From positions 1-24,129 of the IMG/VR virus record IMGVR_UViG_3300034073_002845: a stretch of 24,129 nt of DNA. One strand, written 5' to 3'. The notes beneath the pieces are model-generated. The model saw nothing but the letters and a program-made list of their open reading frames with translations. It was not told the origin of the DNA and ran no database searches. The DNA is from a virus. Shown here piece after piece: positions 4,460-22,427 of this stretch (position 1 is its first letter; each line of letters starts with the position of its first letter). The position numbers were made by a program, and so were the translations under genes.

Positions 4460-4648
4460 ATGGGCAAGCTAGTTTTATCCCGCAAGAAGTCGCAGCGTAT
4501 TTTAGTTGGCGACAAGATCGCTATCGAGGTTTTGCAGATCAAGGGCGGAACCGTGAGGATTGGAATCGAGGCGCCGCAGGGTATCAAGGTAATAAGGGAG
4601 GAGTTAATAAATTTGCCACCGGCCGGCGAAGATGCTACAAAGGATTGA
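4460..4648 (+). CDS. csrA: CsrA/RsmA-family RNA-binding regulator encoded by the phage
   Basis: Sixty-two residues that follow the CsrA pattern along the whole domain: 'LVLSRKKSQRILVGDKIAIE', then 'VLQIKGGTVRIGIEAP', then 'GIKVIREEL'. CsrA dimers bind GGA-containing hairpins in mRNA leaders and block or help translation. The two key RNA-contact arginines of E. coli CsrA (R6 and R44) correspond to R8 and R46 here; the usual His before the second is Ile. A short tail (52-62) extends past the domain. ATG 4460 follows AAGGAGG, itself in a CsrA-type hairpin loop. The gene ends exactly where the kissing-loop RNA begins and precedes the replication initiator, so its targets may be phage or host messages; which ones cannot be read from this window. 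Confidence 0.9.
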   Translation: MGKLVLSRKKSQRILVGDKIAIEVLQIKGGTVRIGIEAPQGIKVIREELINLPPAGEDATKD

Positions 4649-4738
4649 GCTGAGTAGACGCAGCTGAGAGAACAACAACGCGGGAAACCGCTAAGAGCCA
4701 ATCATTGAGGTCGTCTACCCTCGGTGGTTGGCTTTTTT
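4648..4738 (+). ncRNA. Structured RNA with complementary hairpin loops (kissing-loop element)
   Basis: Three hairpins follow the csrA stop. H1: AGCTG/CAGCT (4648-4652 with 4661-4665) with 8-base loop AGTAGACG. H2: GCGG-GAAA-CCGC (4680-4691), a GNRA tetraloop. H3: a 15-bp stem (4696-4710 with 4719-4733, including G-U pairs) with 8-base loop TCGTCTAC, followed by a run of T. GTAGACG in the loop of H1 (4654-4660) is perfectly complementary to CGTCTAC in the loop of H3 (4712-4718). H3 is also the terminator in front of the replication initiator, so loop pairing could change termination or translation. I recognise no known RNA family in it. Confidence 0.6.
4696..4738 (+). terminator. Rho-independent terminator between csrA and the replication gene
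   Basis: AGCCAATCA (4696-4704) pairs with TGGTTGGCT (4725-4733), continued inward by two G-U pairs and GAGG/CCTC, and is followed by six T (4733-4738). It ends only 14 bases before ATG 4753, so expression of the replication initiator must depend on read-through or antitermination; no promoter is evident in between. Confidence 0.8.
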
Positions 4739-4752
4739 GTTGGGGTCCAATT

Positions 4753-5541
4753 ATGAGCTGGATTAAGTTTGAAACAGCCACAAGCCACAAGCCAGAGGTT
4801 TGGCAGATGGCGCAGGATTTGGGAATAGACCCAGATGCAGTTGTGGGAAAGTTGCTAAGGGTTTGGGCGTGGTTTGATGAACAGACCGAAAATGGTAACG
4901 CTCCAAGCGTTACAAAAGCGTTACTGGATCGTTACGTAGGCGTTACAGGCTTCGTTACAGCAATGTTACAGGTTGGTTGGCTAAGTGAGGATGAGACCGG
5001 AATCTCGATCCCAAACTTTAATCGCCACAATGGGAACACCGCTAAAAAGAGGGCCTTAACAGCAAAGCGAGTAGCCGAAAGTAGGGTAAAAGAGGGCGAT
5101 GTAACGCAAGAGTACGAAAATTGTAACGCTTCAAACGTTACATCAGCGTTACCTAGAGAAGAGAAGATAAGAGAAAGAGAAGATAAGAATAATAATACCC
5201 CCCATAGCCCCCCAAGGGGCAAGAGGGAAAAGCTGGCTACTTATCAATTCACTTTGGACGACATCCCGCCGGAGCTTGCAACCAACGATTTTCGCCGAGC
5301 GTGGAACAGCTGGATTGTCCACCGCCGGGAAATCAAAAAGCCGATCACCGCGACCAGCGCCAAGAGCCAGCTGAAATGGTGCGCCGCCCAGGGTGAGCGC
5401 CAGGCCGTAGCCGCGATCGAGTACACGATCCGCAAAGGGTGGCAGGGTTTGGAGCGCTGCCCGAAGGAAGAAAAGCCCAAGCAAAGCTTCGAGGAAATGG
5501 TCGCCGAGTTCAGAAGGGAGCCGCAAGATGCAAACGTCTGA
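4753..5541 (+). CDS. Phage replication initiator (DnaD/lambda O-like) with internal origin
   Basis: A 262-residue protein. The first 105 residues form a winged-helix-type domain seen in phage replication proteins ('SWIKFETATSHKPEVWQMAQ', then 'VGKLLRVWAWFDEQTENGNA', then 'NFNRHNGNTAKKRALTAKRV'). A charged linker follows (about 110-160), then a compact C-terminal domain with 'RRAWNSWIVHRREIKKPITA' that probably contacts the helicase or its loader. ATG 4753 has GGGG at 4742-4745; the upstream frame crosses the terminator. Inside the gene lie GTTAC repeats spaced by about one helix turn and an A+G-rich stretch, as in the lambda O gene, where the initiator binds its own coding DNA. It overlaps the next gene by 14 bases. 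Confidence 0.75.
   Translation: MSWIKFETATSHKPEVWQMAQDLGIDPDAVVGKLLRVWAWFDEQTENGNAPSVTKALLDRYVGVTGFVTAMLQVGWLSEDETGISIPNFNRHNGNTAKKRALTAKRVAESRVKEGDVTQEYENCNASNVTSALPREEKIREREDKNNNTPHSPPRGKREKLATYQFTLDDIPPELATNDFRRAWNSWIVHRREIKKPITATSAKSQLKWCAAQGERQAVAAIEYTIRKGWQGLERCPKEEKPKQSFEEMVAEFRREPQDANV
4895..4969 (+). repeat. Iteron array, cluster 1 (probable replication origin)
   Basis: GTTAC occurs at 4909, 4920, 4931, 4942, 4954 and 4965, that is at steps of 11, 11, 11, 12 and 11 bases, most often as GCGTTAC or TCGTTAC. The first copy forms an inverted repeat with GTAACGC (4895-4901). Eleven is not a multiple of three, so the pattern cannot come from a repeated peptide. Helix-phased repeats inside an initiator gene are typical of lambdoid origins. 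Confidence 0.75.
5101..5152 (+). repeat. Iteron array, cluster 2
   Basis: GTAACGC at 5101 and 5123 (22 bases apart, two turns) faces CGTTAC-type copies whose GTTAC starts at 5137 and 5148 (11 apart). The step from the inverted to the direct copy is 14 bases, the same as in cluster 1 (4895 to 4909). Both clusters therefore share one geometry and probably bind the same protein. Confidence 0.7.
5153..5200 (+). repeat. A+T/purine-rich stretch with tandem 14-mers (possible DNA-unwinding element)
   Basis: Directly right of the iterons the strand is almost pure A and G. It contains the 14-mer AAGAGAAGATAAGA twice (5159-5172 and 5175-5188, 16 bases apart) and then AATAATAATA. Placed beside iterons, this matches the easily melted element of iteron origins. 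It encodes the charged linker of the initiator. Confidence 0.55.
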
Positions 5542-13369: not shown

Positions 13370-13736
13370 AACCGCGCAGTTAATATTTGATGGTTTGCTT
13401 TTGATCGGGCTATTTTTAATGGCCGTAGCGATCGGATGCCAGTCGCAAAATGGGCCGCGCGATAACGTCGCCAATACGTTTTTGCGTGATTATGCCATTG
13501 GACTAAGCAGCGCGTTTTTGAAAGCCGGCAGCGAAGTAGAGCAGGGCAATATTAAGACCGATGCCGATTTACTTGAAGCCCTTAAAGGTGCGACGGAAAG
13601 CGCCCGCAAGGAAGCGGCGATTGGTATTGATACGTACCTCGAAGAGAAGCTATCTAACGGCGATTTGACCCGCGACGATGCCAAGGTTTTGCGTGATCTG
13701 GGCCAGCAATTCCGGGAGGCGTATCGTGGAAGATAA
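13356..13736 (+). CDS. Probable phage lipoprotein
   Basis: A 126-residue protein with a hydrophobic N-terminal stretch 'LLLIGLFLMAVAIGC' ending in a lipobox-like A-I-G-C (C28), so it should be exported and anchored by lipid. The exported part is hydrophilic and helical ('VANTFLRDYAIGLSSAFLKA', later 'GATESARKEAAIGIDTYLEE'). GTG 13356 is chosen because AAGGA (13342-13346) precedes it and the signal sequence begins there; the open frame extends further upstream without a signal. Lipid-anchored phage proteins are usually outer spanins or superinfection-exclusion factors. It sits unusually, between head-completion and tail genes, directly before a cysteine protease. Confidence 0.65.
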   Translation: MSTNKTAQLIFDGLLLIGLFLMAVAIGCQSQNGPRDNVANTFLRDYAIGLSSAFLKAGSEVEQGNIKTDADLLEALKGATESARKEAAIGIDTYLEEKLSNGDLTRDDAKVLRDLGQQFREAYRGR

Positions 13737-14559
13737 CTACGGCTATCGAATTGACATTGAAAACCGTGAAGCGCTTCAGGAAGAGTCGCCGCCGTTTTTA
13801 CTAAAACTAACCGCCGAGCCAGAGCGCGTGGACCCAAGGCCGATTTTGGTCACTGAAGATCAGGGCAGCATGGGAAGTTGCCAGGGGCATAGTTTGTCAA
13901 CGTGCCTTGAGTGGTGCCATTACGTCGCAACCCGCGGCCAGTATTTGCAGCTGAGCCGGCTGTTTGCTTACCTTGGATCGCAGCGCTTGGACGGCATTGT
14001 GGGCGACAATGGCAGCACGTTACACGGTGGCGCCAAGCTGGCCAAAAATTACGGCATTTGCCCAGAGAACGTTTTGCCCTACCCGTCGCCGGTTAGGTAT
14101 CCAGGCGGAGGGTGGCGCAGTATGCCGGACAGCGCATGGGATGCCGCTAAAAAATACACGATCGCTACAGCGCAGTTCATTCAAGCCGAGCCACAGGTGA
14201 AAACGTGGCTAGCCGCTGGAGCTGGGCTAGTAAACATTGGCATCGCATGGGGCGCAGCGATGACGCCAGACAGCCGCGGGTGCATTAAGTCGTTCAGGGC
14301 TGGTGGCGGTGGTCATGCCGTCGTACTGGCCGGCTACGTGCCAGATGCAGCCGTGGGCGTCGATAGTGGCGATAGTTTTTGGTATTTGCTGCATAATAGC
14401 CATTCCAAGCGCTGGGGGATGAGCGGCTGGGCTTATGTTGCGCCGCGCGCCGTTAGGCAGATGATTGAGCATAGGTTTTCAACGTTTGTAGGCTTGTCCG
14501 ATATGGATCAAGTCGCGCCGCGAGAAATTGATTTTACGAAGGATAGTGTGATCACATGA
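13726..14559 (+). CDS. Papain-like (C1-type) cysteine peptidase
   Basis: A 277-residue protein with the full papain catalytic set. 'TEDQGSMGSCQGHSLSTCLE' supplies the oxyanion Gln (Q46) and nucleophile C52, 'GGGGHAVVLAGYV' supplies H197, and 'WYLLHNSHSKRWGMSGWAYV' supplies N224. GTG 13726 follows GGGAGG (13713-13718); it lacks a signal peptide and a long propeptide, so it is probably made active or trapped in a particle. C1 peptidases cut proteins or peptide bonds; in a phage this might be cell-wall opening, virion maturation or attack on a host protein. Its place between a lipoprotein and a small secreted protein, inside the head-to-tail gene order, favours a role at the cell surface, but this is inference. 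Confidence 0.85.
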   Translation: MEDNYGYRIDIENREALQEESPPFLLKLTAEPERVDPRPILVTEDQGSMGSCQGHSLSTCLEWCHYVATRGQYLQLSRLFAYLGSQRLDGIVGDNGSTLHGGAKLAKNYGICPENVLPYPSPVRYPGGGWRSMPDSAWDAAKKYTIATAQFIQAEPQVKTWLAAGAGLVNIGIAWGAAMTPDSRGCIKSFRAGGGGHAVVLAGYVPDAAVGVDSGDSFWYLLHNSHSKRWGMSGWAYVAPRAVRQMIEHRFSTFVGLSDMDQVAPREIDFTKDSVIT

Positions 14560-21046: not shown

Positions 21047-21579
21047 TGGCATTGCCAGATTATTTTGTGCAGAGTCAAGGTACAGCGGTCATTTGGCGAG
21101 ACAGCGGCGGAACCGGTGGAACCGCAATTATCACGCTAGATGCACTTGCAGACGGTTCAGCCCGTATGGGTGCAGCGGTGGACCTTGGAGCAGACTGGAA
21201 TCGTGAGTATCTAGTGACATTGGTAGTTGAAACCGGCACTGCTCCAACGGCAGGCAACCGAGTCGATTTGTATTTTGCGTGCAGTTACGACAATACACTT
21301 TGGCCAGCGGGCGTGACGGGCAGCGATGGTGCTTGGCCCGCAGACGGCAACGAGGACGAATGGGCGGTTCAGTTAGGTTGGCCCGTGGTCAGTTTGAATG
21401 CAACCAATGACGGGAACGCAGAGCAGGTGCAGAACCCAGTGATTTGGAGACCATCGGGACGTTATGTGGCTCCGGTGGTTGATAACAACTTAGGCCAAGC
21501 GTTCCGAGACCAGGCAACGGCGGCAGATAATAAATCAAGAATCATCATGGTGCCACTACGCGAGGCGATTGTTGACTAA
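21046..21579 (+). CDS. Virion protein of the tail-fibre module (unassigned)
   Basis: A 177-residue beta-rich protein with many Gly, Asp and Trp residues: 'TAVIWRDSGGTGGTAIITLD', 'NREYLVTLVVETGTAPTAGN', 'VDLYFACSYDNTLWPAGVTG', and 'NPVIWRPSGRYVAPVVDNNL'. The pattern looks like a single jelly-roll domain, as found in proteins decorating tails or fibres. There is no signal peptide, and ATG 21046 shares a base with the previous stop (TAATG) with AGAGG upstream, so it is translated with its neighbours. I know related proteins only as phage structural proteins without detailed function. Confidence 0.55.
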   Translation: MALPDYFVQSQGTAVIWRDSGGTGGTAIITLDALADGSARMGAAVDLGADWNREYLVTLVVETGTAPTAGNRVDLYFACSYDNTLWPAGVTGSDGAWPADGNEDEWAVQLGWPVVSLNATNDGNAEQVQNPVIWRPSGRYVAPVVDNNLGQAFRDQATAADNKSRIIMVPLREAIVD

Positions 21580-22427
21580 TGAGCCAAGTCGTAGTCAGTC
21601 AGCAAGCAGGGTACGCGAGAAACGCCAGTGAGTCGGCCTATCCGAATCTTTGGCGTGGACTGGATATTTGGGTTTGCCCAAGCATCAATCCTAGAGGTCT
21701 TACGCTGTACGATTTGGGGCCAGGAAGAAAAAACGGGACACTGGAAAATGTGCTTGCGTCTGCTTGGGGCGTTAGTCAGGGGGGTGGGTATCTCGCATTA
21801 AATAGAGCTTCTACCAGAGATTGCGTAAACTTCGGAAATGTAGGGCATCAAGCAAACGATTTTACAGTTTGTGGTTGGGTGTATAAGCTTTCGACGACGA
21901 CAAGTTTCAGCAACATTTGGTTTATCAATAGGTGGCAGACTGGGGCAGGCGGCCAGAATGAATTTTTATTGTCGTGTGGCCAAGCCTTTGGAACAGGTAA
22001 TGGCGACATTCCAAGTTTTACAATAGTGGTATCAGGGATATCTTACACAGCTGCTTCCGTGACAAATTTGTCGCTAAATAAGTGGCAACACATTTGCGGA
22101 GTCCGGCGCGGTTCGGTCGTGCAGTTCTATCTTGACGGTAAAACGGAAGCAACTACTAATGCAACAGCGACGGCAATTTCGAAATTTAGCAGAAATCTCA
22201 AAATCGGCGATTCAGATATTGGATCTGATTTGAGCAACAATATCTATGTCGATGATCTTCGCATCTATAATCGAGCATTGGCCCCAACGGAAATTGCCTT
22301 ACTTGCCTCCCGTCGAAGAATAGGTCTAGAGCCAAGATTTGATCGACAAGCCTATGAGCAAGTAGCGGCTGGCATTGCTAACCCAGTTTTGTTTTATAAT
22401 CACTACGTTAACCAAGGGTTTTTCTGA
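21579..22427 (+). CDS. LamG/concanavalin-like domain virion protein
   Basis: A 282-residue protein with one LamG-type jelly-roll over most of its length. The diagnostic series is 'DFTVCGWVYKLSTTTSFSNI' (strand with CGWV), 'WQHICGVRRGSVVQFYLDGK', 'RNLKIGDSDIGSDLSNNIYV' and 'DDLRIYNRALAPTEIALLAS', the usual end of LamG-like lectin domains. Such domains bind sugars or proteins on cell surfaces, so it probably helps the tail attach to the host. The N-terminal 'PNLWRGLDIWVCPSINPRG' and the C-terminal 40 residues are outside the domain and may anchor it to the fibre. Starts and stops overlap both neighbours (TAATG and TGATG). Confidence 0.82.
   Translation: MSQVVVSQQAGYARNASESAYPNLWRGLDIWVCPSINPRGLTLYDLGPGRKNGTLENVLASAWGVSQGGGYLALNRASTRDCVNFGNVGHQANDFTVCGWVYKLSTTTSFSNIWFINRWQTGAGGQNEFLLSCGQAFGTGNGDIPSFTIVVSGISYTAASVTNLSLNKWQHICGVRRGSVVQFYLDGKTEATTNATATAISKFSRNLKIGDSDIGSDLSNNIYVDDLRIYNRALAPTEIALLASRRRIGLEPRFDRQAYEQVAAGIANPVLFYNHYVNQGFF

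Follow-up and report, generated by a model that had tools for sequence, protein, structure and literature searches.

Why should the loop of a transcription terminator in front of a phage replication gene be complementary to the loop of a hairpin upstream of it? The question arises at the junction between csrA and a replication initiation (rep) gene in a 24,129-base virus record (hereafter the window), which also encodes RecE/RecT, RusA, a GpA-type terminase, and portal and capsid proteins. A papain-family cysteine protease (PF00112, E = 1e-8) is encoded among its virion genes at 13678-14559, and a Laminin-G/ConA-like lectin domain protein (PF13385, E = 7e-20), likely a receptor-binding part, in the tail region at 21579-22427. 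At the junction, the original prediction described two hairpins whose 8-nt loops share a perfect 7-nt complement, a GNRA-capped hairpin between them, and a 15-bp terminator ending 14 nt before the initiator start. All of these parts were located in the raw sequence and checked by folding, and profile matches agreed on the 5' csrA and the 3' replication initiation gene (Table 1). The loop match is above chance, a complement of at least 7 nt between two random 8-nt loops having P = 2.1e-4. The element folds with an MFE of -46 kcal/mol (z = -4.0) and is more stable than 199 of 200 shuffles. Its terminator stem pairs 4696-4710 with 4719-4733 with no mismatch and three G-U pairs. Since terminator stems of this kind carry 2-4 G-U pairs each and no mismatch, the RNA was assigned to the + strand, and a DNA-level cruciform or origin structure was rejected as the main reading on the same ground.

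Table 1. Features of the csrA-rep junction (window coordinates)
Feature	Position	Strand	Basis or remark
csrA	4460-4648	+	PF02599, E = 2e-18; last base of the stop codon is the first base of hairpin 1
Predicted sigma70-like promoter: -35 TTGCCA (4613-4618), 17 nt, -10 TACAAA (4636-4641)	4613-4641	+	within the csrA 3' end
Hairpin 1, AGCTG/CAGCT, 8-nt loop AGTAGACG	4648-4665	+	sequence, fold, stem covariation
Hairpin 1 segments: AGCTG, loop AGTAGACG, CAGCT	4648-4652, 4653-4660, 4661-4665	+	
Kissing segment 1, GTAGACG	4654-4660	+	7 pairs, covariation in 8 RNAs
CA-rich single-stranded linker GAGAGAACAACAAC	4666-4679	+	alignment of clade RNAs
Invariant hairpin GCGG-GNAA-CCGC, GNRA tetraloop	4680-4691	+	loop GAAA in the window, GAAA or GCAA in the clade
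15-bp terminator hairpin, 8-nt loop TCGTCTAC at 4711-4718	4696-4733	+	fold, covariation, G-U pairs
Kissing segment 2, CGTCTAC	4712-4718	+	exact reverse complement of GTAGACG (4654-4660)
Terminator U-run	4733-4738	+	sequence; ends 14 nt before the ATG at 4753
GTTGGGG, Shine-Dalgarno-like sequence of rep	4739-4745	+	in read-through RNA, GUUG could base-pair with CAAC of the linker (fold)
Phage replication initiation protein (YdaU-like)	4753-5541	+	phrog_2509, E = 7e-61

Relatives were collected by an IMG/VR scan with the window's terminase, and the csrA-rep junction was found in several close relatives. Loop 1 reads GTAGACG, CTACCAG, GTAGCTG or CTAGCAG in the aligned relatives, with the exact complement in each terminator loop. 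A covariance model that ignored the loop pairing recovered two RNAs on which it had not been trained, L235 and L238, at E of about 1e-16 from another rep-gene scan, one of which contributed the new loop pair ATAGTAG/CTACTAT. Across the eight distinct RNAs, these two included, the seven pairs of the kissing helix were 100% paired and four of the seven were altered on both sides. Double-change cells in the helix numbered 13 against 4.7 in shuffles (0 of 500 shuffles), and shifting the partner by 1-3 columns reduced pairing to 18-46%. The supporting stems also showed both-side changes, in 4/5 pairs of hairpin 1 and 10/15 pairs of the terminator. Loss of complementarity behind a retained terminator is not what the relatives show: in this comparison, which had been proposed with the original prediction, the complement was kept throughout and compensatory changes were present. 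The RNA thereby displays the feature that defines our proposed class, intrinsic terminators with a kissing 5' hairpin, namely a loop complement of at least 7 nt kept by double changes. At the level of sequence, the comparison shows that selection preserves a kissing helix of at least 7 bp that links the terminator hairpin to the hairpin at the 5' end, even as the sequences of the loops change.

Other parts of the element vary less than its loops, which change quickly from relative to relative. The clade geometry is fixed (8-nt loops, 15-bp stem), and the middle hairpin is invariant except that its loop is GAAA or GCAA, both GNRA. An AACAAC-type linker is present in 7/8 clade RNAs, having been lost in L014. 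The near-invariant linker and GNRA hairpin are more than a bare attenuator would need.

The genes on either side are exchanged. RNAs of the same clade precede three different replication genes: YdaU-like (the window, L002 and L082), O-like (L003, L014, L235 and L238) and phrog_1408 (L011 and L087). csrA adjoins the RNA in most of the clade, its stop codon falling on or in hairpin 1, or no more than 10 nt from where that hairpin starts, in the csrA-bearing RNAs checked; in L082 the RNA is present and the upstream gene is not csrA. Because the flanking genes are exchanged, the RNA is bound neither to csrA nor to one rep-gene sequence. The core of the original prediction, a selected loop-loop contact before a replication gene, thus stands, while its tie to csrA proved inessential. 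RNAs of the same plan and unrelated sequence were located after genes other than csrA. At the csrA-rep junctions of L003, L002 and L011, csrA is near-identical and the kissing RNAs and replication genes differ; these are mosaic phages with recombination joints at the csrA end.

The same architecture was recognized in unrelated sequences. The first diverged examples were chosen by eye in upstream regions of related rep genes and then subjected to a scripted test that uses simple definitions of terminator and hairpin; rep loci fetched later, with three rep types, served as the independent check. In this later set, 26 distinct regions had a nearby terminator; 20 of them passed the strict kissing test, and four more of the 26 had an 8-12-nt complement outside a strict loop. 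The unit is common, not universal: of 100 distinct regions upstream of related rep genes, 74 lack such a terminator. In the full set of fetched phage loci, with near-identical terminators removed and related RNAs treated as independent, terminators kissing an upstream hairpin loop made up 17/19 of those adjacent to rep versus 5/96 of the others (Fisher P = 4.7e-14), against shuffled expectations of 0.3 and 3.8, respectively. At least three of the five non-rep cases share the architecture and precede other early genes. Pairing is specific to each RNA: a complement of 7-12 nt between its own two loops was found in 26/26 distinct RNAs, versus a match of at least 7 nt in 7/640 swapped pairs. Grouping by eye gave at least five sequence-unrelated types (the window type; L182/L193/L142; L109/L111/L258-L266/L108; L176/L177/L188/L168; and a few singletons), which have a topology in common and no sequence motif.

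Several of these loci carry features of their own. In L168 and L196 the RNA and rep are separated by a small gene. In L108 (positions 340-450), a TATAAT promoter and a 12-nt kissing terminator stand before an unidentified early gene instead of rep. A short reading frame that opens with M-x-x-M-[IM]-A crosses hairpin 1 and the terminator in L109, L111, L261 and L266 and was not seen in L258; the frame may encode a leader peptide or may have arisen by chance. The minus strand of L105 carries, at 2699-2736, an abiF RNA (RF03085, 47 bits versus a gathering score of 37). It lies some 120 nt upstream of the kissing RNA, no abiF gene is obvious in the sequence fetched, and the phage could be using it as a decoy of an Abi defence RNA.

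Promoter predictions point to a separate transcript. The window promoter scores p = 0.005 versus random positions and has a predicted start at about 4648; a stricter stock consensus scan omits it because the last T is missing from its -10 box. In 23/24 distinct RNAs the end of a sigma70-like promoter falls 3-10 nt ahead of the first paired base of hairpin 1, the exception being L123, with no clear promoter at the expected place. The combined P for this placement is about 1e-22 versus shuffled upstream sequence and 1e-26 versus random positions, values that are too small because related RNAs were counted as independent, although the signal holds in unrelated types too. The upstream sequences of L114 and L115 differ, yet TGGACG-16-TATGAT is kept in both. 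A promoter just before hairpin 1 points to a transcript start at hairpin 1, and the product is probably a discrete RNA running from there to the terminator, ~90 nt here and up to ~130 nt elsewhere. The suggestion that the element is the target of an antisense RNA gained no support: a consensus scan found no minus-strand promoter reading across 4648-4738, the lone nearby minus-strand promoter-like site (4527-4499) points away from the element, and the evidence for a promoter comes from the strand that carries rep.

The element had been described as unlike any known RNA family, and Rfam agrees. There was no gathering-score match in the window or the other element-bearing loci searched, except the separate abiF RNA of L105, and nothing relevant to the window element up to E = 10. 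No earlier description of such an RNA was found in the literature searched, whose coverage leaves out most subscription journals. We know of no family that fits this RNA, and its class has probably not been described so far. Most examples are metagenomic contigs; of the phage records examined, only ctnlZ23 (MW202710, spring water) carries the element. None of the cultured phages examined that have the same rep type (from Xanthomonas, Pseudomonas, E. coli, Salmonella and Vibrio) has it, and their rep mostly starts directly after the preceding gene. Scanned with a strict pattern, 84,980 species genomes yielded a single chance match, in an OmpA-like gene of Rugamonas, and 399 genomes of that Rugamonas' order contained two rep relatives, both without such a terminator.

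What might the kiss do? We lean, with about even confidence, to reading this phage small-RNA transcription unit as an attenuated leader of the early replication operon, with a terminator that would be locked by the kiss. The RNA would start at its own sigma70-type promoter by hairpin 1 and stop at the terminator. Most transcripts would end at the kissing-locked terminator as a stable small RNA with both ends protected, and the replication genes would be expressed solely from read-through transcripts. As the csrA stop lies near hairpin 1, a terminating ribosome would block hairpin 1 on upstream transcripts only. On transcripts of the upstream operon, the csrA ribosome stopping on hairpin 1 could keep the lock open, and the kiss could thereby let the terminator tell own-promoter transcripts from upstream-operon transcripts. 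It is possible that the element controls termination versus replication-gene expression, one of the two roles suggested in the original prediction. No terminator arm contains the complement, which lies in the loop; competition between the kiss and termination is therefore not obvious, and the kiss could simply stabilize the RNA. In read-through RNA, GUUG-CAAC pairing might cover the rep Shine-Dalgarno sequence. This pairing is possible in most relatives and is secondary because it is not possible in L082.

The parallel originally drawn was with the pseudoknot control of repZ in ColIb-P9, where the partner of a loop is the single-stranded stretch immediately before the repZ ribosome binding site. 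Both systems place loop pairing upstream of a replication gene, with an upstream reading frame ending near the structure. The ColIb-P9 pseudoknot, however, activates translation near the repZ start and is the target of the antisense Inc RNA, whereas here both partners are hairpin loops, the second within a transcription terminator, and the RNA has its own predicted promoter at hairpin 1. We rejected repZ-type control: loop 1 has its partner in the terminator loop (4711-4718), and the U-run ends 20 nt further on. The late-leader 6S RNA of lambda (PR'-tR') resembles the unit in its promoter, its short terminated RNA and the expression of downstream genes by read-through. Kissing terminators in the lambda genome, in contrast, occur only near background, and we know of no loop-loop lock in that leader.

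A stable trans-acting phage sRNA gene that merely adjoins replication genes is a serious alternative, somewhat short of even in our estimate and nearly as likely as the attenuated leader. The kiss would then shield both ends of the sRNA, or hide a loop seed until a target opens it. Hfq class II sRNAs combine an ARN-repeat single strand with a U-tail, and here a CA-rich linker and U-tail would recruit Hfq or a similar chaperone. The AAC-repeat linker of the window clade and the A/C-rich linkers of L109, L111 and L258-L266 accord with this, although those of L114, L176 and L182 are not CA-rich. A unit with its own predicted promoter and terminator, an invariant GNRA hairpin and a linker conserved within the clade is likewise what such a gene would look like. 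The unit also stands before other early genes, and given the intervening gene of L168 and L196 and the other early gene of L108, a stand-alone sRNA gene fits equally. Against it, the loops drift fast, unlike a seed for a conserved host target, and no third hairpin covarying with them was seen in the same phage contigs. Siting before replication genes is also much more regular than random placement.

RNA immunity or copy control, in which the terminated RNA would recognize nascent copies of itself in trans (loop 1 on loop 2) and shut off the replication genes of an incoming related phage, appears improbable. Its fast-changing loops would supply specificity, much as happens in P4 immunity and plasmid incompatibility, and they do diversify with the complement retained. 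P4 controls its replication operon by termination, and its CI-type immunity rests on a processed RNA that pairs in trans with two leader segments; the siting before replication genes resembles the P4 leader. The P4 CI and P1 C4 (RF01695) RNAs are likewise phage early-operon leader RNAs with complementary segments. They act in trans on separate target segments, whereas here the complement lies within one terminated RNA, where cis pairing should outcompete trans pairing. C4 antisense RNA was ruled out, its covariance model giving no match in the loci searched. Antisense RNAs of the FinP/FinO type from F plasmids are similarly short RNAs in which a single-stranded spacer connects a hairpin at the 5' end to a terminator hairpin at the 3' end, and their loops are regulatory. 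FinP loops, though, pair with another RNA (the traJ leader), while in the present RNA the two loops complement one another and covary; neither an opposing promoter nor a separate antisense one was found. Kissing terminators also occur only at about the low background rate in the lambda, P22, P4, HK022 and N15 genomes; none of the 12 HK022 terminators has a kissing hairpin, and P4 has one background-rate match.

CsrA-sequestering sRNAs of the CsrB/RsmZ type carry repeated GGA motifs in hairpin loops, and in HK022 put two cis hairpins make RNA polymerase disregard downstream terminators. That our RNA is such a protein-bound structure (CsrA sponge, decoy or put-like polymerase-binding antiterminator) is very unlikely despite the adjacent csrA in most of the clade and the fixed geometry, since GGA is not conserved in any loop of the eight RNAs (a CsrA sponge was rejected on this count), the middle loop shifts from GAAA to GCAA, loop 2 begins with TC, AC or CC, csrA is missing in L082, and the unrelated types have a topology and no sequence motif in common.

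Intrinsic terminators are usually viewed as a stem and a U-run with a nearly irrelevant loop. Here, in many phages, the terminator loop at the entrance to the replication genes is under strong selection for pairing with a hairpin further upstream. We suggest tentatively that these RNAs, of at least five types, form a phage RNA class in which an intramolecular kiss would act as a built-in switch for intrinsic termination, gating replication and sensing transcript origin. If the kiss alters termination or RNA lifetime, it would represent a control principle for terminators, with a dozen natural variants at hand. A functional kissing terminator would also be a marker for abundant, unannotated phage small RNAs.
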